64,000 nt of DNA from Nonomuraea angiospora (lineage in GTDB: Bacteria > Actinomycetota > Actinomycetes > Streptosporangiales > Streptosporangiaceae). The notes under the pieces are model-generated. The model saw nothing but the letters and a program-made list of their open reading frames with translations. It had not been told where the DNA came from and did no database searches. Numbering within the stretch: position 1 is the first letter of the stretch; the number at the start of each line of letters is the position of its first letter. Both the position numbers and the translations under genes were made by a program. The stretch covers positions 12,586,001-12,650,000 of the forward strand of contig NZ_JADBEK010000001.1 in the NCBI RefSeq assembly GCF_014873145.1, written 5' to 3'. This document shows positions 32,798-59,447 of this stretch, piece by piece.

Positions 32798-32843
32798 GAT
32801 AGAGACCGGTTTCTAAAGTAGGAGCGCGGCCCTTCGCGGTCAA
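32798..32843 (-). promoter_or_regulatory. Leftward promoter and LacI operator of the dehydrogenase-GH36-lacI operon
   Basis: Read on the minus strand: TTGACC (32843-32838), 17 bases, TACTTT (32820-32815), then at once TAGAAACC/GGTCTCTA (32815-32800), a 16-base palindrome with one mismatched pair, extended to CTATC (32802-32798). The operator directly follows the -10 box, ideal for repression. CTATC recurs six bases from the centre in three other boxes. Confidence 0.8.
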
Positions 32844-32910: not shown

Positions 32911-32983
32911 GTAACGTCTCTGTAACGCAGCCTTGAACGTGCTGGCCGCTCGGACGTAGCGTTCGCAGCGACCGGTTTCTATC
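32911..32983 (+). promoter_or_regulatory. Rightward promoter of the LplB-type transporter operon, with direct repeat and LacI box
   Basis: GTAACG at 32911-32916 and 32922-32927 (11-base period), a 5-base gap, TTGAAC (32933-32938), 18 bases, TAGCGT (32957-32962), then GCGACC/GGTTTCTATC (32968-32983) centred at 32973/32974. GTAACG-N5-GTAACG resembles the direct-repeat box I recall for the response regulator MtrA of actinobacteria; that link is from memory. The same design recurs at 40387-40458. Confidence 0.75.
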
Positions 32984-33028
32984 AACCTTGAGAGCCAGCC
33001 TGCTGCCGCCTCAGACGGGACTTCGGTG

Positions 33029-34015
33029 ATGAGCACGCTACAGACGAGGCCAGAGCCTCAGACGAGACCGCCTTCCGGGGCGCCGGACCGGCGCCGCGTC
33101 CGACGCAGGGCGGTCCGTACGAACTGGACGATCGGGCTGCTCGCACTGCCGGCCGTCGTCTTCTTCCTTGTCTTCAGCTACCTGCCGATGTCCGGCCTGG
33201 TGGTGGCGTTCAAGGAGTTCGACGTCAACCTGGGGATCTTCGGCAGCCCGTGGAACGGGCTGGAGAACTTCACCTACTTCCTGGAGTCCGGGGACGCGGC
33301 GAGGATCCTGTTCAACACCCTCTTCCTCAACATCCTGTTCCTGGGCGCGACGCTGGCCGCCGGGATGGTTCTGGCGATCATGCTGAACGAGATCCGCAGC
33401 ACCTTCTTCAAGCGGGTCTCCCAGTCCGTCGTCTTCTTCCCCTACTTCGTCTCCCCGGTCGTGATCAGCATCATCCTCCAGGTGCTGCTGGCCGGGGCCT
33501 CCGGCGGGGGCGGGGCGGTCAACGACGCCCTCGGGGGCCTCGGGTTCCCCGCCGTCGACTGGTACACGGAGCCGGGACCGTGGCCGTGGATCCTCACCGT
33601 GGTGAAGATCTGGCAGCTCGGCGGCTACCTGAGCGTCATCTTCCTGGCCGCGATCACCGGCATCCCCGAGGAGGTCTACGAGGCCGGGACGATCGACGGG
33701 GCCTCGCGGGCCCAGATGGCCTGGCGCATCACCCTCCCGCTGCTGAAGCCCACCGCGGCGGTCCTGCTGGTGCTGGGCGTCGGCCGCATCTTCTACGGCG
33801 ACTTCGGCACCATCTACGCGATCGTCGGGGACAACGGCACCCTGTTCGACAGCACGGACGTCATCGACACCTACGTCTTCCGCGCCCTGCGCCAGCTCGG
33901 CGACTTCGGCACCACGGCCGCGATCGGCCTGTTCCAGTCGGTGGTGGGTTTCGTCCTCGTGGTGATCGCGGTGCTGATCCAGCGCAAGTACTCGAAGGAG
34001 ACCAGCGTCCTATGA
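33029..34015 (+). CDS. Sugar ABC transporter permease 1 (LplB type)
   Basis: A 328-residue permease with six predicted helices and the EAA loop EVYEAGTIDGASRAQMAWRI. Its C-terminal TLFDSTDVIDTYVFRAL and IQRKYSKETSVL match LplB/YteP-type permeases, which import oligosaccharides such as rhamnogalacturonan fragments, and use a shared MsmX-like ATPase encoded elsewhere. A 45-residue Arg/Pro-rich tail precedes the first helix. The ATG at 33029 is preferred over GTG 33026 by spacing from GACGGGA. First gene of the rightward operon. Confidence 0.9.
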   Translation: MSTLQTRPEPQTRPPSGAPDRRRVRRRAVRTNWTIGLLALPAVVFFLVFSYLPMSGLVVAFKEFDVNLGIFGSPWNGLENFTYFLESGDAARILFNTLFLNILFLGATLAAGMVLAIMLNEIRSTFFKRVSQSVVFFPYFVSPVVISIILQVLLAGASGGGGAVNDALGGLGFPAVDWYTEPGPWPWILTVVKIWQLGGYLSVIFLAAITGIPEEVYEAGTIDGASRAQMAWRITLPLLKPTAAVLLVLGVGRIFYGDFGTIYAIVGDNGTLFDSTDVIDTYVFRALRQLGDFGTTAAIGLFQSVVGFVLVVIAVLIQRKYSKETSVL

Positions 34016-34878
34016 GCGGCAAGAAGCTGGAACCGTTCACGATCGTCAGCATCATCGGCGTCTCCTTCGCCGTGCTGGCCTGCGCGATCCCGTTCTGGAT
34101 GATCATCTCGGGGTCCCTCACCAGCGAGTCCGAGCTCGCCACGACGGGCTACAGCCTGTTCCCCGCCGCCTTCGACCTCACCGCGTACAAGATGATCTTC
34201 ACGGGCCCGGCGGTGCTCGACGCCTACTTCGCCAGCGTCTTCATCACGGTCGTGGGCACGGCGCTGTCCCTGGCGGTGACCTCGGGGCTGAGCTGGGTGA
34301 TCGCCCGCAGGCTGCCCGGCATCAGCCGGCCGCTGACCGTCTTCTCCTACCTGCCGATGCTGTTCTCCGGCGGCCTGGTGCCCCTCTACCTGCTGGTCAC
34401 GCAGTACCTGAAGCTGCAGAACAGCTACTTCTCGGTGATCCTGCCGCTGCTGGTCATGCCGTTCCTGGTCTTCGTCCAGGTCAGCGCGTTCCGCCAGCTG
34501 CCGGAGTCGATCTTCGAGTCGGCCAAGATCGACGGCGCGGGGGAGCTGCGCATCTTCTTCACGATCGCGATCCCGCTGTCCAAGCCGATCCTGGCCGTCG
34601 TCGGCCTGTTCTACGCCGTGCACTACTGGAACGACTGGTTCATGGCGCTGCTGTTCATCGACGACGTGCACAAGTTCCCGCTGCCCCTCGTGCTGCAGAA
34701 CCTCATCTCCAACATCTCGTTCACGCAGATGCTGCCGCAGCTGGCCGAGGCGGCCACCCCCGTCTACCAGCTCCGCCTGGCTCTCACGACCGTCGCCATC
34801 GGCCCGATCCTGCTCGCCTACCCCTTCGCCCAGCGCTACTTCGTCAAGGGCATCACCCTCGGTGCCACCAAGGGCTGA
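34012..34878 (+). CDS. Sugar ABC transporter permease 2 (YtcP type)
   Basis: A 288-residue permease, MalG-like, with six helices; the ATPase-contact loop is ESIFESAKIDGAGELRIFFT, followed by LPLSKPILAV-like sequence. The C-terminus AQRYFVKGITLGATKG is the usual YtcP-type ending. It overlaps the first permease by four bases (ATGA), so the pair is co-translated and forms the channel heterodimer. No ATPase gene is in the operon. Confidence 0.9.
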   Translation: MSGKKLEPFTIVSIIGVSFAVLACAIPFWMIISGSLTSESELATTGYSLFPAAFDLTAYKMIFTGPAVLDAYFASVFITVVGTALSLAVTSGLSWVIARRLPGISRPLTVFSYLPMLFSGGLVPLYLLVTQYLKLQNSYFSVILPLLVMPFLVFVQVSAFRQLPESIFESAKIDGAGELRIFFTIAIPLSKPILAVVGLFYAVHYWNDWFMALLFIDDVHKFPLPLVLQNLISNISFTQMLPQLAEAATPVYQLRLALTTVAIGPILLAYPFAQRYFVKGITLGATKG

Positions 34879-34906
34879 TCCCGCTCCCCCCACCTCAGGA
34901 GTTACC

Positions 34907-36478
34907 GTGTCCCACCACCTCATGTCGCGGCGCCGCCTGCTGGCCACCGGCGGCGGTCTGTCCCTGGCCGCCCTCCTCGCCGCCTGCTCGGACGACTCCC
35001 CGAAGTCGCAGGCCACCGGCGGCGCCCAGAGCGCCGGCGCGCTCGCGCTGAGCCTGCTGCTCCCCGGCGACGTCCCGGCCGGCTGGGACGCCGTCCTGGC
35101 CGAGGTCAACAAGAAACTCCAGGCGGACCTGGGCTTCACCATCAAGCCGCAGTTCATCCCGTGGACCAGCTACGGCCAGCAGGCACTGCTGAAGTTCACC
35201 GCGGGGGAGAAGTTCGACACCGCGCTGCAGGCGCGCTGGCTCAACATGACCCAGCTCGCGGCCAGCGGCTCGATCGTCGAGCTGAGCAGCCTGCTGTCGA
35301 GCGGCAAGTACCCCAACCTGACCGCCACGATCGACCCGAAGATCATCGAGCTCAACCGGTGGAGCGGCAAGCTCTACGGCCTGCCCCAGATCAACTCGGT
35401 CGCCCGCTTCCACCACTTCAGCATCCGCCAGGACTTGGCGGACAAGCTCGGCATGAGCGACATCACGGACTTCGCCGGGCTGGAGAAGTTCTGGTACGAC
35501 GTCAAGCAGAAGAACAAGGACATCATCCCGATCGGCGTCAGCTCCCGGATGCCCAAGCTGCTGGTGGCCTGGAACCCGGTCGGCTGGCTCAACCCCTACA
35601 TGTGGGACAACCCCACCATGAGCATCGCCTCCTTCACCGGCGACTCGCTCAACTTCGTCCTGGCCGCCGACGGCAAGCAGACCGGCTCGTCCAACCCGAT
35701 CCCGTGGTGGGAGGCCCCGGGCATGGTGGACGCGCTGCGCAAGATCCGCAAGTACTACCAGGACGGGCTGATCAACAAGAACGCCCTCACCCTGGACTCC
35801 AAGGCGCTGGACTCCCAGTTCAAGGCCGGCCGCGTCGCCACCGGCTGGGCCATGACCGACGGCCTGTCCTCCACGGGGCTGCCCGAGCTGACCAAGAACG
35901 TGCCGGGCGCGATGATCGCGAACGTGATGCCGCTCAAGGGCGGCGAGAGCGCCAAGCCGTACCAGACCTTCCAGAGCGACAACTTCGTCGTGCTCAACGC
36001 CAAGGGCGAGAGCAACGAGAAGGCCATGCAGCTGCAGGACTGGGTGTCGATCAAGGAGAACCACGACCTGCTCAACTACGGCCTCCCCGGCAAGGACTGG
36101 AACCCCGTCGGCGACGACAAGTACGAGCAGCTGTCCACCTACGCCTTCCCCGGCTTCGCCCTCTCCTGGCGGGCCAAGCTGGAGCGCCGGGTCAAGGGCA
36201 TGACCGAGTCCGAGGCCAAGTGGTTCGACTGGGCGCAGGACATCGACAACTTCACCGTCGACCCCTACGCCGGCTTCGTCCCCGATCCGGAGCCGATCAA
36301 GCGGGAGAACACCCAGGTCACCGCGGCCATGACGCAGTTCGCCAACCCGCTGTTCATCGGCGCCGTGGACGTCGACCAGGGGCTCGACAAGCTGAAGAAG
36401 GCGTTGGAGCGGGCGGGCCTGGCCAAGGTCCAGGCCGAGATGGCCAAGCAGGCCGACGCCTACCTGAAGGGCCAGTGA
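34907..36478 (+). CDS. Sugar ABC transporter substrate-binding lipoprotein (LipO type)
   Basis: A 523-residue binding protein. The N-terminus combines a twin-arginine-like motif (MSRRRLLATGGG) with a lipobox LLAAC (Cys near 27), so it is likely a Tat-exported lipoprotein. Length and motifs (KLYGLPQINSVARFHHFSIR; DWVSIKENHDLLNYGLPGKD) fit the large LipO/LplA class that partners LplB/YtcP permeases. The GTG at 34907 lies 6 bases after AGGAG. It supplies the transporter with oligosaccharides produced outside the cell. Confidence 0.9.
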   Translation: MSHHLMSRRRLLATGGGLSLAALLAACSDDSPKSQATGGAQSAGALALSLLLPGDVPAGWDAVLAEVNKKLQADLGFTIKPQFIPWTSYGQQALLKFTAGEKFDTALQARWLNMTQLAASGSIVELSSLLSSGKYPNLTATIDPKIIELNRWSGKLYGLPQINSVARFHHFSIRQDLADKLGMSDITDFAGLEKFWYDVKQKNKDIIPIGVSSRMPKLLVAWNPVGWLNPYMWDNPTMSIASFTGDSLNFVLAADGKQTGSSNPIPWWEAPGMVDALRKIRKYYQDGLINKNALTLDSKALDSQFKAGRVATGWAMTDGLSSTGLPELTKNVPGAMIANVMPLKGGESAKPYQTFQSDNFVVLNAKGESNEKAMQLQDWVSIKENHDLLNYGLPGKDWNPVGDDKYEQLSTYAFPGFALSWRAKLERRVKGMTESEAKWFDWAQDIDNFTVDPYAGFVPDPEPIKRENTQVTAAMTQFANPLFIGAVDVDQGLDKLKKALERAGLAKVQAEMAKQADAYLKGQ

Positions 36479-36480
36479 CG

Positions 36481-36691
36481 ATGGCGCTCCCCATCAGCCG
36501 GAGGACCGCGCTTGCGTCCTCCGGCACGCCGGCCGCCGCCACCTGGTCATGGAACGGCGAGGCCGCCGCCACGAAGGGCCGTGCCGCACGGCACCAGGTC
36601 CCGTGACCTCGTGACCGGCCGCCGCGTCCGCCTGGGAGCCCCGACCGAGGTCGCGCCCCTCAGCACCGTGGTGCTCTTCCTGGAGGACTGA
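36481..36691 (+). pseudogene. Probable remnant of an exported glycoside-hydrolase-like gene
   Basis: Two unrelated-frame pieces fit the ends of one lost gene. The first (36481-36606) starts MALPISRRTALASSGTPAAA, a Tat-type signal start, and stops after 41 codons. The second, in another frame, reads DLVTGRRVRLGAPTEVAPLS then TVVLFLED and TGA at 36689-36691, much like the C-terminal beta-domain of glycoside hydrolases (D-hydrophobic-TG at its start and PLSTVVL near the end). It lies between the binding protein and GH43, where a hydrolase would fit. Interpretation is inference; it could be chance. Confidence 0.45.
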
Positions 36692-36843
36692 TGCACTCCT
36701 CGCCCGGGCCGTCGCGCCCCCTGGGCCGACGGCGTCCGGGCCGGGAGCATCTCGCTGATCGACCAGACCGTTACCGTTGTTCACCGTGCCTCGGGCCTGC
36801 GCCGAATAGTTGAGCTGTCCGCTGGAAAGAGTGTGGAGATCGT

Positions 36844-38358
36844 ATGATCCGCAATCCCGTCCTGCCCGGTTTCGACCCCGACCCCTCGATCGTGCGGGTG
36901 GGAGAGGATTACTACCTGGCCACCTCGACCTTCGAGTGGTGTCCGGGCGTCCGCGTGCACCACTCCCGTGACCTGGTGAACTGGCGCCCGCTGGGCGGCG
37001 TCCTGACCGAGCGCAGGCTGCTCGACCTGTCCGGCGTGCCCGACTCGGGGGGCGTCTGGGCGCCCGACCTGACCTATCACGACGGGCTGTTCCACCTGGT
37101 CTACGGCGTGATGGACAACTACGCCCTCGGCTACAAGGACATCGCCAACTACCTGATCACCGCACCCTCGATCGAGGGGCCGTGGTCCGACCCGGTCCGG
37201 CTGCCGGGCCGCGGCTTCGACGCCTCCCTCTACCACGAGGACGGCCGGAGCTGGCTGCTCAACATGGTCTTCGACTCCCGGCCGGGCCGCGGGTTCGCCG
37301 GGATCGAGCTGCAGCCCCTCGACGGTGGCAAACCCGAGCTGATCCTGCCCAACCGCAGCGTCACCGAGGGCCCGCACCTCTACAAGATCGACGGCTGGTA
37401 CTACCTGATGGTGGCCGAGGGCGGCACCGGCTACGAGCACGGGGTCACGGTGCTGCGCTCCCGCTCGATGTCGGGGCCGTACGAGGAGGACCCGGCGGGG
37501 CCCATGCTCACCTCCCGTCACGACCGCAGCCTGGAGCTGCAGAAGGCCGGGCACGGCTGCCTCGTGCGGACGCAGACGGGGGAGTGGTACCTGTCCCACC
37601 TGATGGCCCGGCCGTACCACAACGGCCGGTGCGTGCTCGGGCGCGAGACCGCGCTGCAGCGCGTGACCTGGGAGGACGGCTGGCCGCGCGTGGCGGGCGG
37701 CGTGCCCGCCGTCGAGGTGGCCGCGCCCGAGCTGCCCGCGCACCCGTGGCCGGCGAGCGAGGGCTGGAACGGCTCGCCGTCCGCCGGCGGGCTCGGCCCG
37801 GACTGGAGCACGCTGCGGCGGCCCGCCTCGCCCGACTGGCTCTCCGCCGACCAGGGCGGGCTCACCGTCCAGGGCGGTCAGTCCCCGTACGGCCTGCGCA
37901 CCCCGAGCCTGGTCGCCCGCCGGGTCACGGACCGCACGTGCTCCCTGGAGACGGTCATGCGGTTCGAGCCGGACAGCGTCCACCAGTGGGCGGGCATCGT
38001 CGCCTACTACAACTCGCGCAACTGGCACTACCTGGCCGTGACCGCCGACGGCCTGGTGCTGACCACCAGCGACCAGGGGACCCGCACCGAGCGCCTGCTC
38101 GGTCCCGCGGGAGGCCCCGCGGGAGGCCCTACGGGAGGAGAGGTCGAGCTGCGCGTGGAGTTCGACGGGCCGGTCGTGCGCTTCAACCACGGCCCGGACC
38201 TGGACGCCACGATCCTTTCGGACGAGCACGCCGACGAGTTCATCGACGGGAAGGTGCGGGCCTTCGGCTTCACCGGCGCGTTCGTGGGGTTCTGGGTGCA
38301 GGACCTGGCGGGGGAGGGCTGCTCGGCGCGCTTCGAGCGGATCAGCTACCGCACATGA
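36844..38358 (+). CDS. GH43 family glycosidase (beta-xylosidase / arabinofuranosidase type)
   Basis: A 504-residue cytoplasmic enzyme. The five-bladed propeller has PGFDPDPSI (general base Asp13), GFDASLY (Asp126, pKa modulator) and VTEGPHLYK (general acid Glu175); VWAPDLTYHDG is also typical. The C-terminal part from about residue 310 is the concanavalin-like GH43_C2 domain (LRTPSLVARRVTDRTCSLET; WAGIVAYYNSRNWHYLAVTA). It likely trims xylosyl or arabinosyl units from imported oligosaccharides. GGAGA precedes the ATG. It overlaps the next gene by four bases. Confidence 0.92.
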   Translation: MIRNPVLPGFDPDPSIVRVGEDYYLATSTFEWCPGVRVHHSRDLVNWRPLGGVLTERRLLDLSGVPDSGGVWAPDLTYHDGLFHLVYGVMDNYALGYKDIANYLITAPSIEGPWSDPVRLPGRGFDASLYHEDGRSWLLNMVFDSRPGRGFAGIELQPLDGGKPELILPNRSVTEGPHLYKIDGWYYLMVAEGGTGYEHGVTVLRSRSMSGPYEEDPAGPMLTSRHDRSLELQKAGHGCLVRTQTGEWYLSHLMARPYHNGRCVLGRETALQRVTWEDGWPRVAGGVPAVEVAAPELPAHPWPASEGWNGSPSAGGLGPDWSTLRRPASPDWLSADQGGLTVQGGQSPYGLRTPSLVARRVTDRTCSLETVMRFEPDSVHQWAGIVAYYNSRNWHYLAVTADGLVLTTSDQGTRTERLLGPAGGPAGGPTGGEVELRVEFDGPVVRFNHGPDLDATILSDEHADEFIDGKVRAFGFTGAFVGFWVQDLAGEGCSARFERISYRT

Positions 38359-39080
38359 GCAACAGCATCTCAAATGTGCACGTCGAGACCTGGGGCAGCG
38401 GCGGCCCGCCGCTGCTCCTGGTGCACGGCTGGGGCGGCGACCACCGGCTGTGGCGCGCCCTGGACTTCGGGGGCCGCCGGGTGATCGCCCCCGACCTGCG
38501 CGGCCACGGCCGCTCCCCGGTTCCGGCGACCGGGTACCGGCCCGTCGACCTGGCCCGCGACCTGGTGCCGCTGCTCGACGAGCCGGTGCTGGCCGTCGGG
38601 CACTCCATGGGCGCCCAGGTGGTCACCGCGCTGGCGGTCGAGCACCCGGAGCTGGTCAGCGGGCTGGTCGTCGTCGCTCCCGCCTACGGCGCCGACGAGG
38701 AGGAGGAACGGCTCATCCCCGGGCGCCTGGCGGCGTTGCGCGCCGACGGCGTGGCCGCCGCGCTGCGGCAGCTCGGGCCGCTGCCCGCGCCGATCACCGG
38801 GCAACTGCTGGCCACGCCCGGTCACGTGCTGGCCGAGTGCTACGCCGGGATGTACACCGTGCCGGGCGCGTTCGGGGTGCGCCGGGAGTCCGAGCGGTAT
38901 CTGGCCGGACGCGCCTGCCCGGTGCTCGCCGTGCACAATGTGCCGGAGGCCGCGCGGTGGGAGGCGGGCCTGACCGGCCACCCGCGCTCCAGGACCGTGG
39001 TGTGGCCGCAGGCCGGGCATTTCCTGCATGTGGAGCGTCCGGCGGAGTTCGTGGAACTGGTGGCCGGCTGGGGCGGGTGA
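38355..39080 (+). CDS. Alpha/beta hydrolase
   Basis: A 241-residue cytoplasmic hydrolase. LLLVHGWGGDHRLW holds the oxyanion region, VGHSMGAQ is the nucleophile elbow (Ser), and AGHFLHVERP carries the catalytic His; an Asp before it completes the triad. Coupled by ATGA overlap to GH43, so it may remove acyl groups (acetyl or feruloyl) from the same oligosaccharide, or act as a lactonase. Substrate is not proven. Confidence 0.88.
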   Translation: MSNSISNVHVETWGSGGPPLLLVHGWGGDHRLWRALDFGGRRVIAPDLRGHGRSPVPATGYRPVDLARDLVPLLDEPVLAVGHSMGAQVVTALAVEHPELVSGLVVVAPAYGADEEEERLIPGRLAALRADGVAAALRQLGPLPAPITGQLLATPGHVLAECYAGMYTVPGAFGVRRESERYLAGRACPVLAVHNVPEAARWEAGLTGHPRSRTVVWPQAGHFLHVERPAEFVELVAGWGG

Positions 39081-39195
39081 GTCTCCTGGGGCCGGTGCCT
39101 CGCCCCTGACTGTGGCCTTCACAACTCGGGTTCGGCAAACGTGAAGACCATCACATACACTCTGACCAGCGGTTACGCGGTGGCCGTTCGTGCCG

Positions 39196-39225
39196 CCGCC
39201 CGGCCTCAGCGCAGCGGCCGGGCGG
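39196..39225 (+). other. Strong hairpin upstream of the ribose-type binding protein gene
   Basis: Perfect 10-base arms CCGCCCGGCC and GGCCGGGCGG flank a 10-base loop, ending 81 bases before the next start codon. No T-run follows. It may be a terminator for the GH43-hydrolase operon or a leader structure of the downstream gene. Confidence 0.55.
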
Positions 39226-39306
39226 TCACGGGTGCGTGTGTAGCGCGCCCGCCGCCCGCGTCGGTGCCCTTTCGCAGCAGGGCTGAGCCCAACGAGAAGA
39301 AGAATC

Positions 39307-40233
39307 ATGCGAAGTCTCGCGTTCGTCATAGCCGGGGTCGCGCTGGGCGCGGCCGCCTGCGGTGCGTCCGCCAGCAGCGAGTCTGCGGCGGATCTCACCA
39401 TCGGCCTGTCGGTCTCGACGATGAGCAACCCGTACTTCGTCCAGTTCCGCGACGGGGCGGAGGCGGCCGCTCAGCGTTTCGGGGCCAAGCTGTCCGTCTC
39501 CGACGCGCAGAACGACGCCTCGCGGCAGGCGGCGCAGGTCCAGGGCTTCACCAGCCGGAGGATGAGGGCGGTCATCATCAACCCGGTCGACTCCAACGCG
39601 CTCGCCACGCAGGTCAAGGCGGCCAACCTGGCCGGCATCCCGGTGATCGCGGCCGACCGCGCCATCAACCACGCCTGGGTGGCGGAGACCCTGACCTCGG
39701 ACAACGCCGCCGGGGGCCGGCTCGGCGCGCAGGAGCTGGCCAAGCAGATCGACGGGAAGGGCGACGTGGTCGTGCTCCGCGGCACGGCCGGCACCTCCGC
39801 CTCCCGGGACCGCAGCAAGGGCTTCGACGACGGTCTCGCCGCGTACCCGAAGATCAAGGTCGTGGCCACGCAGCGGGCCGACTTCGACCGGGCCAAGGGC
39901 CAGAACGTCATGACGGGCCTCATCCGGTCGCATCCCGGCCTCGACGGGGTGTTCGCGGAGAACGACGAGATGGCGCTGGGCGCGATCCAGGCCCTGGGGC
40001 CGAAGGCGGGCCACCGCGTCAAGGTCGTCGGCTTCGACGGCACGCCGGACGGGATCAAGGCGGTGCGGGCGGGCACCATGGCCGCCACGGTCACCCAGCA
40101 GCCGCGGCTGATCGGCTGGCAGGCGGTGCAGGACGCCATCAAGGCGGCCAGGGGTCAGACGGTCGCCAAGACGGTGGCGGTCCCGGTGAAGCTGGCGACC
40201 AAGGAGAACGCGCACGAGTTCTGGACCTTCTGA
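39307..40233 (+). CDS. Orphan ribose-type substrate-binding lipoprotein
   Basis: A 308-residue protein with lipobox AAACG (Cys18) and a type I periplasmic-binding fold like RbsB: LTIGLSVSTMSNPYFVQFRD, AVIINPVDSNALATQVKAAN, GIPVIAADRAI, DGVFAENDEMALGAIQAL, VVGFDGTPDGIKAV. It should bind a monosaccharide. No RbsA/RbsC-type genes are next to it, so it must share a transporter elsewhere or act as a sensor. GAGAAG precedes the ATG. A LacI-type box lies 12 bases after its stop. Confidence 0.88.
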   Translation: MRSLAFVIAGVALGAAACGASASSESAADLTIGLSVSTMSNPYFVQFRDGAEAAAQRFGAKLSVSDAQNDASRQAAQVQGFTSRRMRAVIINPVDSNALATQVKAANLAGIPVIAADRAINHAWVAETLTSDNAAGGRLGAQELAKQIDGKGDVVVLRGTAGTSASRDRSKGFDDGLAAYPKIKVVATQRADFDRAKGQNVMTGLIRSHPGLDGVFAENDEMALGAIQALGPKAGHRVKVVGFDGTPDGIKAVRAGTMAATVTQQPRLIGWQAVQDAIKAARGQTVAKTVAVPVKLATKENAHEFWTF

Positions 40234-40244
40234 GCCAGAGAGCG

Positions 40245-40262
40245 TAGTTACCGGTTCCTATC
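40245..40262. promoter_or_regulatory. LacI-type operator, distal copy
   Basis: TAGTTACC/GGTTCCTA (two mismatched pairs of eight) followed by TC gives the same CTATC extension six bases from the centre as the boxes near 32.8, 33.0 and 40.45 kb. It lies 198 bases upstream of the box at 40443, suited to looping by a LacI-family tetramer, though loop formation is speculation. Confidence 0.65.
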
Positions 40263-40386
40263 AGAGTGCGCTCAGCGTAAATGCGGACCGGCGGGGCAGC
40301 AAGAGGGGGAAAGCGCATTCCGATCTGCGCGATCGTCAATCATGCGTGTGAGCAGGTAAAACGTTCGGCCTGAGTTGATCGCCTGT

Positions 40387-40458
40387 GTAACGCCTGGGTA
40401 ACGGGTGCTTGTCGGGCCTCTCGCTGCGGCCTAATCTCCGGGGAGAACGTTTTCTATC
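40387..40458 (+). promoter_or_regulatory. Promoter of the 1,492-residue protein gene, with direct repeat and LacI box
   Basis: GTAACG at 40387-40392 and 40398-40403 (11-base period), a 5-base gap, TTGTCG (40409-40414), 17 bases, TAATCT (40432-40437), then GAGAAC/GTTTTCTATC (40443-40458). Element order and spacing match the transporter promoter at 32911-32983 almost base for base. Confidence 0.8.
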
Positions 40459-40470
40459 GGGAGATCCGCC

Positions 40471-43400
40471 ATGCTCATACGGCACCGGTTAGGCGGCCCG
40501 CTCGCCGCGATCCTGCTGCTGCCCTTCCTCGCCGCGCCCCCCGCGATGGCCGCCCCCTTGCCCGCCGGATACGTGGACGTGGTCACGTTCGGCGACACCG
40601 ACTCCGAGAGCGCGCACGCGCTGCAGGCGGCCTCCACCGCGGTGGTCGAAGGGGCGCTGGGGGAGCCCGCCCGCGTCGCCAAGCCGACCTCCCCGGCCAC
40701 CGTCAAGGGCGGTGAGCTGCGGTTCAGGGTCGCGGTCGATCCGGTCGCGCAGAACTACTTCACGCTGAAGTTCTGGGGGAGCGACGCCTCGCCCTACAAG
40801 ACGATCGCCTACGTCAACGGCGAGCAGATCGGCTACCGGCGCTCGGGCGACTACGAGGCGATCAACCTCGGATCGAGCAGGGCGCTGCCGGGCCGGTTCT
40901 ACTACAACACGATCATGCTGCCGCTCGGCCACACCCTGGGCCGGCGGGTCGTGGAGATGACCGTCCGGACGTACGACGCCGGGTTCGCCCAGCCCGTGAC
41001 CGCCGACTCGCGCGGCTACTACCGGGCCTACACGCACACCACCGCGTACCTGGACGTCTCCGGCGAGAAGCAGGGGACGGTCACCCCGGACACCACGCCC
41101 GCGCCCGGGCCGTCCGACGCCGAGAAGCAGGCGATGGTCGACCGCTACAGGAAGAGCCAGATCGACCTGTTCAACCAGTACAGCGCGCAACTCGACGCCT
41201 CGCCGGCGGCGAAGCTGTCGATCGTCCGCTACCAGGACGACCTGCGCTTCTACGCCTCGGCGCTGCTGGAGCCGTGGGCGCCGGCGAACACGCCCGAGCT
41301 GAGGAAGGCGGCGCTGGGACGCCTGTTCAAGGCGATCGACAACCACGTCAAGGACTACTACGCCGACACCCGGCTGCTGCTGCGGGGCGGCCACCAGGGC
41401 GACTGGGGCGGCTACTACGGGGCCCTGGGCGAGGCGCTGTACATCGTGGAGAACCTGATCCCCGAGGTGTACGGCGCGCAGGAGTTCGAGGCGTTCCTGG
41501 ACGAGCCCTTCGTCACCGGCACGCAGGACGGGCCGTCCTCGCTCAAGGGCGTGGACTGGGACGGCGGGGAGCTGTCCCGGCGCGAGGCGTACGAGCGGGT
41601 GCTGAAGGCCAACTTCGACTTCGCCCGCGCGCGGCTGTCCTACATCTACAACCAGGTGATGTACACCTACGAGGGCGCGTGGGAGGCGCACGAGGGTCTG
41701 CGGGTGATCGGGTCGCGCTTCTACGAGGGCAAGGCCAGGAGCCACCGGATCCTGCTGGAGGCGCTCGGCGTCGAGCCCTTCCTCGGCGAAGAGGTGCTGG
41801 TGGGGCCCGACGGCAAGGACCTGGACCTCTACCACTCGCTCTTCTACCACGACACCACCGCCCGCTTCACCGACGACTTCGCGCAGATCGTGGGCAAGGG
41901 CCTGGCCAGGAGCAAGCTCGGCCCCGACGGGGGCGTGGTGCGCCGCCTGCCGTACGGCGAGCACTACACCGGCATCACCAAGGCCGGGCTGACCAGGGAG
42001 AACACCTTCGTCGCCAACTACGGCGAGGCCACCAACTACCTGCCGGAGTACTTCTTCCGCACCTGGGGCCACAAGGGCGACGAGAAGCTCAACGACGAGA
42101 TCCTCAAGCTGGCGCTGAAGAACCTGCACGCGCGCGGCTTCACCCGCTACACCGGCACGGACGACAACGGCAAGCGGGTGGCCCTGGCGGAGATGGCCGT
42201 GGACGAGCGCAACGCGACCTACCCGGGCTGGCCCGCCTACGCCCTGCGCAACACCGAGGGCCGCACGATGGAGTACGTCACGCTGGACAAGCACCTGGCC
42301 GAGCACGCCGAGCGCTACGCGGGCCCGGAGTGGGAGCCGTACCGGCGCTACGCGAACGAGGCGGCCGGGTTCGTCCAGCAGCAGCTCGCCGACAACCAGT
42401 ACTTCAACACCTTCTCCTCCGTGGAGGCGAAGCGGAAGTACGACATGTGGCTACCCGAGACCTACGCCTACCTGCGCGCCCGTCCGGCGGCCGGGGCCGT
42501 GCTCCCGCAGACGGACTTCGCCGCGTACACGCCCGCGGAGCTCGCCGCCCTGGGCGTCGACCCGGCCCGCTACGAGCGGTTCGCGTTCGCGGACGTGGAC
42601 GACATGTTCGTCTCCGTCCGCGACGGCGACACCCGGATCTTCGGCTCGCTGTACGAACGGCAGCGCGGCGTGGCCGGCAACGGGCGGCTGCACGTCCTGG
42701 CCAAGGACCACCACAACGTCGTGCAGCTCGCCACGGACACGCAGTTCGCCTACCGCGACTACAACCTGCGGATGGACAACATCGACGTCGACTTCATGGA
42801 GGACCAGCAGAAGGGCGACGGCGGCCTGCCGCAGGCGCTGGCCGGTGAGATCCTGCCCGCCGCCCACCAGCCGGGCGTGGGCACCGTGCGGCGGGAGAAC
42901 TACGAGTTCGACACCCCCTACTCCGGGTACGCCGACTTCCTGACCGCCCGCTACGGCGACTACGTCTTCGCCTTCAACACCACCCGGGACGAGTATGGCA
43001 ACAAGCGCTCGTTCTCGCTGGACGTGCCCGGCGACGCGGTGGACCTGGTGTCGGGCAGGCGCGTGGCCGGGGGCGCGGTGAGCGTGCCGCCCGAGACCGC
43101 GATGGTGCTGAGGCTGGACGGCGGCGTGGCCGAGCGGCCGATCCCGCACCACGTGGACTTCGTCCAGGCGCTGCGGGACCGCGACGGCGTCACCCTCACC
43201 TGGAAGCCCGCCGCCGGCGCCGAGTCGTACACGATCAGGCGCGACGGCAGGGTGATCGCCGCCGGGGTCCGCGGCACGACGTACGAGGCCGGCAGGCAGT
43301 CCGGCGCGTACACCGTGACCGGCGTGAACCGCCACGGCTCCGGCTGGGCCTCGCAGGCCGTCCGGCCGCCCGCCGCGCCGGTGGACCGCGTCGGCGAGGT

Positions 43401-44949
43401 CGCGGGCCGCGTCAAGGCGGACGGGCACCGCGTCGAGCTCACCGGGGGCGACGGCAAGGGCCTCGGCGACGGCGACGACTACTACCTGGACAAGCGTGAC
43501 ATCAAGGACAGCCTGCTGTTCTCGAACGAGGTGCTCACCGGCAGCGGCTCGGTCAGCGCCCGGATCGAGCAGGCGCGGGGCCCGGCCAGTGGCGTGATGC
43601 TCCGGGCCGACGCCCGCTACATCTACTTCGGCGCGGACGCCTCGGGCCGGCTCGTCCTGCGCAACCGCACCCGAGACTCCCGCCACGACTGGCAGGACGA
43701 CCGGCGCAGCCCGATCGACGCCGGCATCCAGGGATACACCGCGGCCGAGTACCCGTTCGTCAAGCTCGTACGGGACGCCGACGCCCAGATCGTGCGGGCG
43801 TGGGCGAGCAAGGACGGCCGGTCGTGGTCGTACGTGGCGGAGCTGTTCACGCCCTTCCCCGAAGGCGTGTACGCCGGGGTCGCGGCGGCCACGGCGGCCA
43901 CGTTCACCCACGTCACGGTGTCGCCCGACCGCGAGGGGACGCTGTACGCCCGGGTGGAGCGGGCCCGCGACCGCGTGACGCTGCGCTGGAGCAAGCCGGA
44001 CGCCGCCACCCGGTTCACCGTCTACCGCAAGGACGGCGCGGGCGCCCCCTGGCGCCCGGTCCTGTCGAGCGCGCTGACCTTCGACTTCACCGACGAACCG
44101 CTGCGGCACGGCACCCGCTTCTACCGGATCGCGGCGATCGGCGCGGACGGCGCCGAAGGGCCGGGCTCGGGCCTGCTGATGGCGGCGGCCGAACCGCTCG
44201 CCACCGTGATCGCCGAGACGGAGAAGCTGCCCGCGGCCGACTACACCAAGGGCAGCTACCACCTGCTGACCCGGGCGCTCGCCGAGGCGCGGGCGGGCGG
44301 CGACGAGGACGCGCTGATCGACCGGATCTACGCCGCCGTCGAGCAGCTCGTGCCGGTCGGCACGCTGCTGAAGAAGGTGACCGTCGAGCCGTCCATGGTG
44401 GAGGCGTCCACCGAGGCGTGGGGAGGCGGCGGCACCAAGGCCCAGAACGGCTGGCGCGCCTTCGACGGCGACCCGGCCACCGCCACCGACACCACCACCT
44501 CGGCGGGCTGGATCGACGTGCGCCTGCCGGCGGCGGTGGCGCTGGACGCCATCCGCTACCACCCGCGCTCCACCCACGTCACGCGGCTGAACGGCGCCGT
44601 GTTCAGGGGATCCGCCGACGGCGGCGCCACCTGGACCGACCTGCACACGGTCAGCGGGGTCGACACGGCGCGGTGGTACTCCGCCGCGCTCGCGCGGAGC
44701 GCGGCCTACCCGTGGCTGCGCGTCGCCTTCCCGTCGGGCAACGCGAACGTGGCCGAGATCGAGTTCCTGTCCATGGGCGACGACCGTACCCTGCTCGACC
44801 TGCTCATCGAGGAGGCCGAGGCCGTCGACCCGAGCCGCCGCACCCCCGAGCTGACCGCCGCGCTGGAACACGCCCGCTCCGAGCTGAGCGGTCAGGAGCA
44901 GATCGACGCCGCGGCCGAGCGGCTGCGCGTCGCCCTCGCGAGCCTGTGA
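40471..44949 (+). CDS. Large secreted multidomain protein, candidate polysaccharide-active enzyme
   Basis: 1,492 residues. Signal peptide 1-28 (ends PPAMAA). Then: beta-rich domain, about 29-205; long alpha-helical region, about 213-670 (DAEKQAMVDRYRKSQIDLFN; YPGWPAYALRNTEGRTMEYV); beta region to about 885; fibronectin-III-like domain (VTLTWKPAAGAESYTIRRDG) near 893-965; lectin-like beta domain, about 973-1150; second fibronectin-III-like domain, 1160-1235; FIVAR-like helices near 1243-1290; discoidin/F5-8C-like domain 1300-1433; helical tail. Add-on domains are typical of extracellular polysaccharide enzymes, but I cannot assign the catalytic core; an alpha/alpha-toroid hydrolase or lyase is possible. 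Confidence 0.75.
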   Translation: MLIRHRLGGPLAAILLLPFLAAPPAMAAPLPAGYVDVVTFGDTDSESAHALQAASTAVVEGALGEPARVAKPTSPATVKGGELRFRVAVDPVAQNYFTLKFWGSDASPYKTIAYVNGEQIGYRRSGDYEAINLGSSRALPGRFYYNTIMLPLGHTLGRRVVEMTVRTYDAGFAQPVTADSRGYYRAYTHTTAYLDVSGEKQGTVTPDTTPAPGPSDAEKQAMVDRYRKSQIDLFNQYSAQLDASPAAKLSIVRYQDDLRFYASALLEPWAPANTPELRKAALGRLFKAIDNHVKDYYADTRLLLRGGHQGDWGGYYGALGEALYIVENLIPEVYGAQEFEAFLDEPFVTGTQDGPSSLKGVDWDGGELSRREAYERVLKANFDFARARLSYIYNQVMYTYEGAWEAHEGLRVIGSRFYEGKARSHRILLEALGVEPFLGEEVLVGPDGKDLDLYHSLFYHDTTARFTDDFAQIVGKGLARSKLGPDGGVVRRLPYGEHYTGITKAGLTRENTFVANYGEATNYLPEYFFRTWGHKGDEKLNDEILKLALKNLHARGFTRYTGTDDNGKRVALAEMAVDERNATYPGWPAYALRNTEGRTMEYVTLDKHLAEHAERYAGPEWEPYRRYANEAAGFVQQQLADNQYFNTFSSVEAKRKYDMWLPETYAYLRARPAAGAVLPQTDFAAYTPAELAALGVDPARYERFAFADVDDMFVSVRDGDTRIFGSLYERQRGVAGNGRLHVLAKDHHNVVQLATDTQFAYRDYNLRMDNIDVDFMEDQQKGDGGLPQALAGEILPAAHQPGVGTVRRENYEFDTPYSGYADFLTARYGDYVFAFNTTRDEYGNKRSFSLDVPGDAVDLVSGRRVAGGAVSVPPETAMVLRLDGGVAERPIPHHVDFVQALRDRDGVTLTWKPAAGAESYTIRRDGRVIAAGVRGTTYEAGRQSGAYTVTGVNRHGSGWASQAVRPPAAPVDRVGEVAGRVKADGHRVELTGGDGKGLGDGDDYYLDKRDIKDSLLFSNEVLTGSGSVSARIEQARGPASGVMLRADARYIYFGADASGRLVLRNRTRDSRHDWQDDRRSPIDAGIQGYTAAEYPFVKLVRDADAQIVRAWASKDGRSWSYVAELFTPFPEGVYAGVAAATAATFTHVTVSPDREGTLYARVERARDRVTLRWSKPDAATRFTVYRKDGAGAPWRPVLSSALTFDFTDEPLRHGTRFYRIAAIGADGAEGPGSGLLMAAAEPLATVIAETEKLPAADYTKGSYHLLTRALAEARAGGDEDALIDRIYAAVEQLVPVGTLLKKVTVEPSMVEASTEAWGGGGTKAQNGWRAFDGDPATATDTTTSAGWIDVRLPAAVALDAIRYHPRSTHVTRLNGAVFRGSADGGATWTDLHTVSGVDTARWYSAALARSAAYPWLRVAFPSGNANVAEIEFLSMGDDRTLLDLLIEEAEAVDPSRRTPELTAALEHARSELSGQEQIDAAAERLRVALASL

Positions 44950-45021: not shown

Positions 45022-46224
45022 ATGTCCGCACGCACCCCCGCCGTCACCCGTCGCGGCGCCCTCAAGGCCGTGCTGGCGGCCGGCGCCGGCGCGGCCCTGC
45101 TGGGCCGCGCCGACCCGGCCGCCGCGGCCAGCCACCCCGGCCTGCTGCACACGCAGGCCGACTTCGACCGCATGCGATCGATGGTCAACGCCGGAGCCCA
45201 GCCCTGGAAGGCGGGCTGGGACCGGCTCGTGGCCAACTCCCACTCCCAGAGCACCTGGACGCCCAACCCGCAGGCGACCATCGTCCGCGGCGGCGACGGC
45301 CAGAACTACGGGATCCTCTACAACGACATCCACGCCGCCTACCAGAACGCGCTGCGCTGGAAGGTCAGCGGCAGCACCGCGCACGGCGACAAGGCCCGCG
45401 ACATCCTCAACGCCTGGTCCGGCACGCTCACCACGGTCACCGGCAACGCCGACCGGTTCCTGGCCGCGGGCATCTACGGCTACCAGTTCGCCAACGTCGC
45501 CGAGATCATGCGCGGCTACGGCGGCTTCGACCTGGCCCGCTTCCAGCGGATGATGCTCAACGTCTTCCACCCGCTCAACGAGAGCTTCCTGACCAACCAC
45601 AACGACGCCTGCATCACCAACTACTGGGCCAACTGGGATCTGTGCACCATGAACTCGATCCTGGCCATCGGCGTGCTCTGCGACCGGCAGGACCTCATCG
45701 ACCGCGCCGTCACCTACTTCAGGACCGGCGCGGGCAACGGCTCGATCATGCACGCCATCCCGTTCCTGCACGGCGGCGGGCTCGCGCAGTGGCAGGAGAG
45801 CGGGCGCGACCAGGGCCACACCATGATGGGCGTCGGCCAGATGGGGGCCTTCTGCGAGATGGCCTGGAACCAGGGCATCGACCTGTACGGCTACGACGGC
45901 AACCGGTTCGCCAAGGCGTGCGAGTACATCGCGAAGTACAACCTGGGCGAGGACGTCCCGTTCACCGCCTACACCTGGGGCACCGGCCAGAACTGCGCCC
46001 AGCAGACGCACACCGCGATCGCGGCGGCGAGCCGCGGCGAGGTGCGGCCCGTCTGGGAGACCGTCTACAACCACTACGCCGTCAGGCGCGGCCTGGCGAT
46101 GCCGTACTCGGCCGCGTTCGTCGCCAAGGTGCGGCCAGAGGGCGGCGGCGGCGACTACGGGCCCAACAGCGGCGGCTTCGACCAGCTCGGGTTCGGCACG
46201 CTCACGCACGCCAGGGTCAGGTGA
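45022..46224 (+). CDS. Secreted alginate lyase family protein 2
   Basis: A 400-residue exported protein with a Tat-like signal (VTRRGALKAVLAAGAGAALL, cleavage near AAAASHP). It shares the start of its mature chain (HPGLLHTQADFDRMRSMVNA and GAQPWKAGWDRL) and length with the protein at 16045. The core has NHNDACITNYWANWDLCTMN and GRDQGHTMMGVGQMGAFCEM, with conserved Asn, His and Tyr of the alginate-lyase alpha/alpha barrel. Likely cleaves a uronate-containing or related polysaccharide. AAGGAG precedes the ATG. It lies downstream of the large secreted protein, past a hairpin. Confidence 0.83.
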   Translation: MSARTPAVTRRGALKAVLAAGAGAALLGRADPAAAASHPGLLHTQADFDRMRSMVNAGAQPWKAGWDRLVANSHSQSTWTPNPQATIVRGGDGQNYGILYNDIHAAYQNALRWKVSGSTAHGDKARDILNAWSGTLTTVTGNADRFLAAGIYGYQFANVAEIMRGYGGFDLARFQRMMLNVFHPLNESFLTNHNDACITNYWANWDLCTMNSILAIGVLCDRQDLIDRAVTYFRTGAGNGSIMHAIPFLHGGGLAQWQESGRDQGHTMMGVGQMGAFCEMAWNQGIDLYGYDGNRFAKACEYIAKYNLGEDVPFTAYTWGTGQNCAQQTHTAIAAASRGEVRPVWETVYNHYAVRRGLAMPYSAAFVAKVRPEGGGGDYGPNSGGFDQLGFGTLTHARVR

Positions 46225-55313: not shown

Positions 55314-56309
55314 TCAGGCGATCCGGGGGAGGTCGGTGAGGCGGACCTGGCCGTGCAGCGGCCGTCCCGTGACGAACCGTTCGACCTCGCCCACCGCGTA
55401 CTCTCCCAGCGCGCGCAGCTCCCTGCCCCGCGCGCCGCTGACGTGCGGGGTCACCCAGACCCCGGGCGCGGACAGCAGGGGATGGCCCGCCGGCAGCGGC
55501 TCGGGGTCGGTGACGTCGAGGATCGCGTTGAGCCTGCCGGACACGCACTCGCCGGTGAGCGCCTCGGTGTCGACGAGCGTGCCGCGAGCGGTGTTGATCA
55601 GCGTGGCGCCGTCCGGCAGCAGGCCGAGGCGGCGCTTGTCCAGCAGCCGGTACGTCTCGGGCAGCGCGGGCGCGTGTACCGTCACCAGGTCGGCGCGGCG
55701 GCACAGGTCGTCGAGCCCGACCGGCTCGCAGCCGAGCTCGCGGGCCTGGCGGGCGTCCAGGTAGGGGTCGTTGAGCAGCGGGGTCACCCCGTACGGTCTG
55801 AGCCGCTCGATCACCAGGCGGCCGACGCGTGAGGCGCCGATGACGCCGACGGTGGCGGCGCCGAGCCCCGCGCGCTCGCCGGGAGCCGGCACGCCGCCGG
55901 GGCGGGGACCGTCCGGCCAGCCGCCCGTCGCGTAGGCGTGGATCCGGCGCGGCACCGACTTGGCGGCCAGGACCAGCATCGAGATCGTGTAGTCGGCCAC
56001 GGGCACCGCGTTGGCCGCGGCGGCCGACGACACGACGATGCCCCGCCGGAACACCTCGGCGGTGACGTGCCCCTTGACGCTGCCGGCGGCGTGCGCGATG
56101 GCCCGCAGCCTGGGCGCGCGCTCCAGAACGGCCGCGTCGATGCGGGGGCACCCCCAGCCGGTGATCAGCACCTCCACGTCGGCGAGCGCCCCCCCGAGGT
56201 GGGGCAGCACGGCGTCGGGGGCCTCGACCAGCCCGTCCAGCCGTTCGCGCACGTCATCGGGGAAGATCTCGCCGAACAACGCGCCGTGCATCGCGAAGGC
56301 GGCTCTCAC
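55314..56309 (-). CDS. D-2-hydroxyacid dehydrogenase family protein 2
   Basis: A 331-residue paralogue of the protein at 31793. The nucleotide motif is VGVIGASRVGRL; catalytic Arg, Glu/Asp and His lie in INTARGTLVD, LDVTDPEPL and TPHVSGARG. VLITGWGCPRIDAAVL and HAAGSVKG mark the same subgroup. It has a 15-residue insertion (GGWPDGPRPGGVPAPGE) near residue 150. The GTG overlaps the lacI-type stop by four bases. Last gene of the leftward DUF2264-lacI-dehydrogenase operon; probably acts on a sugar acid. Confidence 0.88.
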   Translation of the reverse strand: MRAAFAMHGALFGEIFPDDVRERLDGLVEAPDAVLPHLGGALADVEVLITGWGCPRIDAAVLERAPRLRAIAHAAGSVKGHVTAEVFRRGIVVSSAAAANAVPVADYTISMLVLAAKSVPRRIHAYATGGWPDGPRPGGVPAPGERAGLGAATVGVIGASRVGRLVIERLRPYGVTPLLNDPYLDARQARELGCEPVGLDDLCRRADLVTVHAPALPETYRLLDKRRLGLLPDGATLINTARGTLVDTEALTGECVSGRLNAILDVTDPEPLPAGHPLLSAPGVWVTPHVSGARGRELRALGEYAVGEVERFVTGRPLHGQVRLTDLPRIA

Positions 56310-57355
56310 CGCACGCTCCGCAGGCGCCCCACCGAGCTCCTGACCACGATGTGGGTGCCGAGCGTGATCGGCGGCTCGGCCAGCGGGTCCTTGCCGGACA
56401 GAGCGAGGCGTACGGCGGCCCGGCCCAGCTCCGCGTGCGGCAGGTGGACGGTGGTCAGCCCGATGTCCTCGGCCGGGGGCACGTCGTCGTAGCCGACGAC
56501 GGAGACGTCCTCGGGGATGCGCAGGCCGTGCTCGTGGATCGCCTGGACGGCCCCGGCGGCGATCACGTCGGTGGCGGCGAAGACCGCGGTGAAGTCGTCG
56601 TGCCCGGCGGCGAGCCGCCGCTTCATGGCCGCGTACCCGGCAGCCCGGTCGAAGTCGCAGGGCACCTCGAGCGCCGGGTCGTGGCCGAGCCCGTGGTCGG
56701 CGAGAGCAGCGCGGTAACCAGCCACGCGGCTGTCGGACGTGGTGTGCCCGGGGCGCAGCCCCAGGTAGAGGATGCGCCGGTGCCCGGCCGACAGCAGGTG
56801 GGCGGTGACCGCGTGGGCTCCGCCCCTGTTGTCGAACCCGACGGTGAGCGCCGGGACCCCCTCGCCGAGCGGCGGCCGGCCGCACAGCACCAGGCGCGAG
56901 CCCGAGGAGGCCAGCGCGTGGGCGTAGCGCGTCATGCGTTCGCGGTAGTCGTCGTCCAGGATCACGCTGCCCACCAGGATCACCGCCTCGGCCCGCTGCT
57001 CGCGCATCATCTGGACGATGCTGAGCTCGCGCTCCATGTCGCCGCCGGTGGTGCAGATGAGCGACAGGCGCCCCTCGGCGGCGGCCTGCTCCTCCACGCC
57101 CTGGGCGATGAAGGCGTAGTAGGGCACGGACACCGAGTTGACGACGATCGCCACGGCTCCGGGCGAGGCCACGGACAGCGCCCTGGCCTGGGCGTTCGGC
57201 ACGTAGTCCAGCTCGCGCACCGCGCGCAGCACCTTGTGCCGGGTGCTCGGCTGCACCGGGTAGTCGCCGGCCAGGGTGCGCGAGACGGTCGCCACCGAGA
57301 CCCCGGCGTGCTTGGCGACGTCGCGGATGGTGACGCGTTTAGCCGGTCCAGACAA
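56306..57355 (-). CDS. LacI-family regulator 2
   Basis: A 349-residue LacI repressor clearly homologous to the one at 28648 (HTH VTIRDVAKHAGVSVATVSRT; then LDYVPNAQARALS, REQRAEAVILVGSVILDDDY, and GYDDVPPAEDIGLTTVHLPH). The TTG at 57355 follows GGGGGAG and overlaps the DUF2264 stop by 17 bases, as the other lacI-type gene does with GH36. Its likely targets are the GTAACC/GGTTAC boxes in the 59.2-59.5 kb divergent region. Confidence 0.9.
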   Translation of the reverse strand: MSGPAKRVTIRDVAKHAGVSVATVSRTLAGDYPVQPSTRHKVLRAVRELDYVPNAQARALSVASPGAVAIVVNSVSVPYYAFIAQGVEEQAAAEGRLSLICTTGGDMERELSIVQMMREQRAEAVILVGSVILDDDYRERMTRYAHALASSGSRLVLCGRPPLGEGVPALTVGFDNRGGAHAVTAHLLSAGHRRILYLGLRPGHTTSDSRVAGYRAALADHGLGHDPALEVPCDFDRAAGYAAMKRRLAAGHDDFTAVFAATDVIAAGAVQAIHEHGLRIPEDVSVVGYDDVPPAEDIGLTTVHLPHAELGRAAVRLALSGKDPLAEPPITLGTHIVVRSSVGRLRSVR

Positions 57356-59301: not shown

Positions 59302-59447
59302 GTAACGAGATGCTAACAACTCCACCGGGCCGTGTGGTGAACCCGCTGCTAAGTCGGGCATTTCCGGAATCGGAGTTCAAGGGACGGGTCTTGACGACCG
59401 TGTCAACGGCTTTAACGTTCAGCGCAACTTGTCGAGTAACCGGTTAC
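59302..59447 (+). promoter_or_regulatory. Rightward control region of the oligopeptide-type transporter operon
   Basis: Contains GTAACG-N5-CTAACA (59302-59318), a degenerate form of the direct repeat seen at 32911 and 40387; TTGACG (59391-59396), 16 bases, TAACGT (59413-59418); and a perfect 12-base palindrome GTAACC/GGTTAC at 59436-59447, 38 bases before the start codon. The palindrome is the best copy of the LacI 2 box. Confidence 0.65.

Follow-up and report, generated by a model that had tools for sequence, protein, structure and literature searches.

A shared layout at two promoters

How are a transporter and a large secreted protein of one gene cluster brought under common control, and which regulators could exert it? 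The question is raised by a sugar-polymer-degrading gene cluster of the soil actinomycete Nonomuraea angiospora, which lies in the window analysed here (64,000 nucleotides; assembly GCF_014873145.1, contig NZ_JADBEK010000001.1, positions 12,586,001 to 12,650,000; coordinates below count from its first letter). The cluster carries two promoters of the same composite design, conserved in related species, in which an 11-bp direct repeat (GTAACG-N5-GTAACG) is followed by a -35, a -10 and a LacI-type operator. Most likely this adds a new case to the pairing of a GlnR-type global regulator with a LacI-family repressor that is known from maltose genes. The elements of the two promoters, with transcription starts predicted 7 bases past the -10 (near 32969 and 40444), are the following.

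32911..32927, + strand: box of GlnR type of promoter 1, GTAACG-TCTCT-GTAACG, read from the sequence and putatively bound by GlnR
32933..32938, + strand: -35 of promoter 1, TTGAAC, 5 bp past the repeat
32957..32962, + strand: -10 of promoter 1, TAGCGT, inside the block CGTAGCGTTCGCAG
32965..32984, unstranded: LacI-type operator of promoter 1, GCAGCGACCGGTTTCTATCA, covering the predicted transcription start
40387..40403, + strand: box of GlnR type of promoter 2, GTAACG-CCTGG-GTAACG, read from the sequence and putatively bound by GlnR
40409..40414, + strand: -35 of promoter 2, TTGTCG, 5 bp past the repeat
40432..40437, + strand: -10 of promoter 2, TAATCT, partly conserved
40439..40459, unstranded: LacI-type operator of promoter 2, CGGGGAGAACGTTTTCTATCG, covering the predicted start

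The -35 and -10 are separated by 18 bp in promoter 1 and 17 bp in promoter 2. The operators read ...GACCGGTTTCTATC and ...GAACGTTTTCTATC, with the central CG at 32973-32974 and 40448-40449, respectively, 46 and 45 bp past the repeat, which would place the operator centre at about +5 from the predicted start. A preliminary description of this DNA had reported the same order and spacing at both promoters, with a CG-centred box about 46 bases behind the repeat, and direct reading of the sequence bears this out. Its assignment of that box to the LacI type is supported by the position of a CG-centred operator over the predicted start at both promoters, and the layout agrees with its view that the direct repeat lies in helical phase beside the -35, as for an activator of the OmpR type.

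Conservation of the layout in orthologous promoters

Orthologue alignments are firmer evidence for this design than copy statistics. Across the 12 transporter promoters aligned, our own included, conservation covers the repeat, the CTTG, the -10 block and ACCGGTTTCTATC, whereas spacer and flanks drift. The second half-site is GTAACG in 12/12 and the first in 11/12, with GTAACA in the one exception; CTTG (at the -35) and the block CGTAGCGTTCGCAG with its -10 are invariant in all 12. ACCGGTTTCTATC is also present in 12/12, a figure that is selected, since these promoters were picked by ACCGGTTTCTAT, which all 12 permease orthologues possessed.

At the secreted-protein promoter (seven genomes, including our own) the first half-site is kept in 7/7 and the second in 6/7, with GTAACA in the seventh; CTTGT and the TTTCTAT of the operator are found in all seven, and the -10 is partly conserved. 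An eighth genome (G006) has GTAACG/ATAACA at the same place. For two distant orthologues of the secreted protein (G012 and G039, 49% identical), GTnAC-n6-GTnAC was absent from the 16 kb taken. The same promoter in G043 has a relative (82% identical) of the alginate-lyase-family protein as its first gene, so the promoter is tied to the locus and not to a single gene.

Frequency of the repeat and the genes behind it

The exact repeat occurs three times in the 13.1-Mb genome, against none for a reversed-pattern control, and the third copy (C1:9467533) fronts a sugar ATP-binding cassette (ABC) permease as well, in an operon that we take to be ceb-like. Among 54 Nonomuraea genomes we counted 112 exact copies against 9 for the control, with at least one copy in 48 of the 54; beyond the genus, a set of 113 genomes from the order (109 from the same family) yielded 65 against 13. 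Among these order-wide matches, GTAACGCGRGGGTAACG recurs in many genomes of another genus of that family (g4).

From the 112 copies of the genus, 111 distinct ones were recovered. A TTG exactly 5 bp past the repeat, with TANNNT 16-19 bp further on, was present in 22/111, compared with a mean of 0.04 and a maximum of 2 when the downstream sequence was shuffled (1000 rounds). This covers, on the copies recovered from the genus, the scan proposed in the preliminary description for the repeat 5 bp from a -35. A TTG 11 bp past the repeat followed by TANNNT was found in 0/111 copies; the TTG alone at that distance occurs in 40/111, and the -10 of that promoter class is TATAGG. Counted over 72 distinct sequences, the TTG lies 5 bp past the repeat in 20 and 11 bp past it in 11. 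All these spacing and copy figures overstate significance because related copies are not independent.

We then grouped the copies by downstream protein and labelled each group by Pfam on one representative; some labels came from blast against the window proteins. Sugar-related genes follow 78/111 copies, a raw share given without the background rate of sugar genes: 51 ABC permeases, 5 orthologues of the secreted protein, 5 GH43, 5 GH35, 4 GH36, 4 SMP-30 (loosely sugar-related), 2 GH10, 1 alginate-lyase-family protein and 1 ROK. The remaining copies precede 12 PadR/ABC loci (7 assigned by eye), 4 BtrH-like genes, 3 GNAT genes (an NCBIfam label under its cut-offs) and 14 others that are unlabelled or of unclear role, one of them a ricin-lectin protein. 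The preliminary description had connected the repeat with envelope and cell-wall control; none of the labelled groups belongs to the cell wall, with 14/111 unlabelled or unclear, and this connection is not supported.

In the PadR-type loci (L118, L137, L135 and related ones) the repeat stands directly before the start of the PadR-type regulator, which is followed by an ABC transporter; no sugar link is evident.

GlnR as the likely reader of the repeat

We think it rather probable that both boxes are read by GlnR, acting as an activator, with a LacI-family repressor on the operator. The published sites used here come from excerpts of PMC13189361, PMC5650626, PMC10704036, PMC6988585, PMC12323332 and PMC3087709. 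In Streptomyces venezuelae the commonest GlnR motif in vivo is given as a single GTnAC-n6-GTnAC (PMC3087709), and both window repeats fit every specified position of that box, as they do GTnAC-n6-G(T/A)nAC; here the half-site is GTAACG twice, 5 bp from the -35. An A at half-site position 4 is described as required for GlnR sites (PMC10704036, section 20) and is present in both boxes. The genome has a glnR gene (L208), whose best matches are 8hih and 8hig, and also 4o1h (named GlnR); it contains a 23-residue stretch common to 8hih and 8hig.

The canonical GlnR form, GTAACR-N5-GAAACR, is enriched (202 against 25 for the control). From 30 loci fetched with this form, 10 adjoining proteins were chosen by hand for Pfam: 2 glutamine synthetases, 1 MFS transporter and 7 of sugar type, namely an alpha-L-fucosidase, its LacI, an arabinofuranosidase, three binding proteins and a PfkB kinase. 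The glutamine synthetase boxes of the genus have GTAACR as first half-site and GAAACA (once GAAACG) as second. Before the LacI gene beside the fucosidase in our own genome, a canonical box is followed after 5 bp by TTGACA, the gap seen in the window promoters. The divergent intergenic region between these two genes (L381) holds two canonical boxes, at C1:1939491 and 1939767.

Precedents point the same way, as far as the excerpts go. GlnR sites are described at many sugar ABC operons (PMC6988585, PMC10704036), and malEFG of Saccharopolyspora erythraea and Streptomyces coelicolor combines GlnR-dependent expression with repression by the LacI-family MalR, so that there, as here, a GlnR site and LacI-family operators meet at a sugar ABC transporter promoter (PMC6988585). 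The MalR site of malEFG overlaps the GlnR site, whereas here the operator lies over the predicted start, and unlike malEFG the design extends to a secreted protein in an enzyme locus. A joint control by an envelope regulator and a LacI repressor had been put forward as new; the composite design stands, the envelope part is not supported, and malEFG takes away the novelty in kind. We found no account of this repeat in Nonomuraea among the literature matches listed, which does not show it to be unpublished.

The repeat had first been likened to the MtrA box, and MtrA is now an unlikely reader. Its sites are described as loosely conserved and are built like this repeat, from TAAC-like half-sites in direct orientation at equal spacing. 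Carbon genes are possible targets, since in S. coelicolor MtrA binds ahead of citrate synthase genes (PMC12323332), and, by the title of Zhu 2019, it binds GlnR boxes. The genome also has an mtrA gene (L212). Compared with the Streptomyces site (GTAACC-N5-GTAACC, the S. coelicolor consensus of PMC12323332; also GtnAcC-n5-GTnAcn), the window repeats match 5/6 bases per half-site; base 6 is G in both, not the consensus C. The C form is at chance in the 54 Nonomuraea genomes (10 against 9 for the control), and by eye no such repeat lies in the 500 bases ahead of the mtrA reading frame. Since MtrA sites are loose, the scan lowers the case for MtrA without closing it; it was the lack of enrichment of the published consensus that cost MtrA the first place. 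The repeat fits the GlnR and AfsQ1 sites in full.

With up to one mismatch the repeat is not special in our own genome (12 against 9 for the control), and for this reason weak, mismatched sites were left out of the analysis; within the window, up to two mismatches gave 3 sites against 1.47 expected, a number reached by 19/100 shuffles. Several observations weigh against GlnR. The PadR (12), BtrH-like (4) and GNAT (3) genes behind the repeat are not explained by a role in carbon or nitrogen control. The published AfsQ1 site of S. coelicolor, GTnAC-n6-GTnAC, is identical in form and is likewise matched in full (PMC6988585, in excerpt). In addition, amtB, a known GlnR target, carries GAAAC in both half-sites at 30/30 loci examined (L177-L206), in the form GAAACN-N5-GAAACA about 141-207 bases ahead of the Amt domain match, a clean GlnR form for the genus. 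In the sugar boxes, by comparison, the second half-site always has T as its second base, in 12/12 transporter promoters and in 40/40 of the ceb-like operon (from 80 loci, 38 without the anchor were left uncounted and two Actinomadura loci without the box set aside; L259 was read in register). Such a split between T and A would also fit two different proteins.

One such division would have an AfsQ1-like response regulator (L224, L228 or L221 of our own genome, which we take to resemble AfsQ1) read the repeat and activate the sugar genes, with GlnR limited to sites that have a GAAAC half-site. Three regulators of the genome have recognition helices of the type D.RLVDACV.R.RAKIE, and the strict T at position 2 in the sugar boxes, against A in amtB, would suit it. 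We regard this as rather doubtful, since in the excerpts the sugar role is documented for GlnR, and the AfsQ1 targets named are sigQ and antibiotic, nitrogen, phosphate and development genes.

A regulator of another kind, AraC-like, SARP-like or uncharacterised, is very unlikely to read the 11-bp repeat. None of the published consensus sequences we examined has exactly this half-site, with T at position 2 and a purine at position 6, and several targets fall outside sugar genes, but the spacing and half-site suit OmpR-type sites well. More broadly, and as a tentative possibility, a dedicated global activator of carbohydrate genes in the Streptosporangiaceae other than GlnR may read GTAACG-N5-GTAACG by the -35, together with many local LacI repressors; if so, it would be an actinobacterial counterpart of CRP over lac-type repressors.

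That the two promoters resemble each other by chance, or that one is a recent duplicate of the other, is extremely improbable. The one-mismatch count in our own genome would agree with it, but the blocks are kept in orthologues while flanks and spacers drift, the two promoters are unlike each other outside the blocks, and the genus holds 112 exact copies against 9; it was rejected on the orthologue alignments. GlnR is therefore retained as a likely, rather than a proven, reader.

Autoregulation could betray the reader by a box ahead of its own gene, but a rough and weak scan ahead of 30 regulator open frames (30 of 88 matches, starts untrimmed) gave a single match, GTCACCCCGGTGACACC upstream of L236, and this one offers no lead.

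LacI-type operators and the candidate repressor

Beyond the operators over the two predicted starts, each of which has one good arm (those at 32965 and 40439), the window contains further elements of this system.

32798..32817, unstranded: LacI-type operator, near-perfect near-palindrome GATAGAGACCGGTTTCTAAA, ahead of the divergent 2-hydroxyacid dehydrogenase gene
40244..40263, unstranded: LacI-type operator GTAGTTACCGGTTCCTATCA, upstream of promoter 2
56306..57436, - strand: LacI-family regulator (Pfam), candidate reader of the operators

With up to one mismatch, ACCGGTTTCTATC occurs at five places in the genome against one for the control; three are at this locus, and 32798..32817 is among the five. 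The sole exact genome copy of ACCGGTTTCTATC is the operator at 32965..32984.

The repressor may be the LacI at 56306-57436 or one encoded elsewhere. In the window no LacI gene lies beside the operators. In G030, G043 and G006, LacI genes 52-59% identical to the LacI at 56306-57436 stand divergently, no more than a few hundred bases from the related promoters, and in G004 a 99-residue stretch 61% identical to it is found some 1 kb ahead of the transporter promoter. Directly preceding TVSR in the recognition helix, the window LacI has the residues VA, the LacI of G030 has AT, that of G004 PS, and those of G043 and G006 LS; slight differences also exist in the operators of G043 and G006. Operator specificity cannot be read off because of these differences. 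The operon near the LacI at 56306 has its own perfect palindrome, GTAACCGGTTAC (59436-59447), possibly the operator of that LacI. Ahead of the oligopeptide-type binding protein gene (59485), at 59302-59447, a weak repeat GTAACGAGATGCTAACA accompanies this palindrome.

The sugar operon at the third repeat copy (C1:9467533, L001:1480-1600, with L237-L274) has a promoter with very strong conservation across Nonomuraea, Planomonospora and Planobispora; it consists of the palindrome CGATATATCG, then GTAACR-N5-GTAACG, then TGCAAAGGGTTGACG. A LacI-like site within TGCAAAGGGTTGACG seems to overlap its -35. In two Actinomadura loci the final part of this promoter is retained without the repeat.

Proposed mechanism

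In the mechanism that we propose, each promoter would integrate one global and one local signal. Two GlnR subunits would bind in tandem to the 11-bp direct repeat just ahead of the -35, both on the same helix face, and would bring in RNA polymerase whenever the balance of nitrogen and carbon demands it. A LacI-family repressor would occupy the CG-centred operator over the start and be released by an oligosaccharide from the polymer. As both promoters combine a GlnR-type box with a LacI-type operator, the transporter and the secreted protein would be on together only with sugar available and GlnR permission.

From the copies collected across the genus comes a list of genes for sugar uptake and polymer degradation, probably all under one global regulator, and the GlnR-plus-LacI logic would be widened from transporters to glycosidase genes and the secreted protein of an enzyme locus. 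The copies also raise the question whether the T-type (GTAAC) and A-type (GAAAC) boxes have a common reader or one each. In antibiotic-producing Nonomuraea, the proposed control would link nitrogen supply to polysaccharide use, which bears on strain work.

Genes of the locus

Promoter 1 leads into two sugar ABC permeases and a DUF3502 binding protein, with a GH43 gene after them; promoter 2 leads into the large secreted protein and an alginate-lyase-family protein.

33026..34015, + strand: sugar ABC permease (BPD_transp_1; Pfam), first gene of promoter 1
34033..34878, + strand: second sugar ABC permease (Pfam)
34862..36478, + strand: extracellular binding protein with DUF3502 (Pfam)
36844..38358, + strand: GH43 glycosidase (Pfam)
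40471..44949, + strand: large secreted protein of 1492 aa (Pfam; orthologues in the genus), first gene of promoter 2
45022..46224, + strand: alginate-lyase-family protein (PF05426; Pfam)
31793-32779, - strand: 2-hydroxyacid dehydrogenase gene, divergent from promoter 1

Relatives of the GH43 gene (68-74% identical) in five other genomes have an exact repeat of their own; none was found when we looked for the exact repeat at the GH43 promoter in the window. The C-terminus of the secreted protein carries an F5/8-type C-like domain, slightly under its Pfam cut-off. Between the two promoters lies a lone ribose-type binding protein (Peripla_BP_4, 39307-40233), and upstream of it, by eye, an alpha/beta-hydrolase-like reading frame on the + strand (about 38370-39080).

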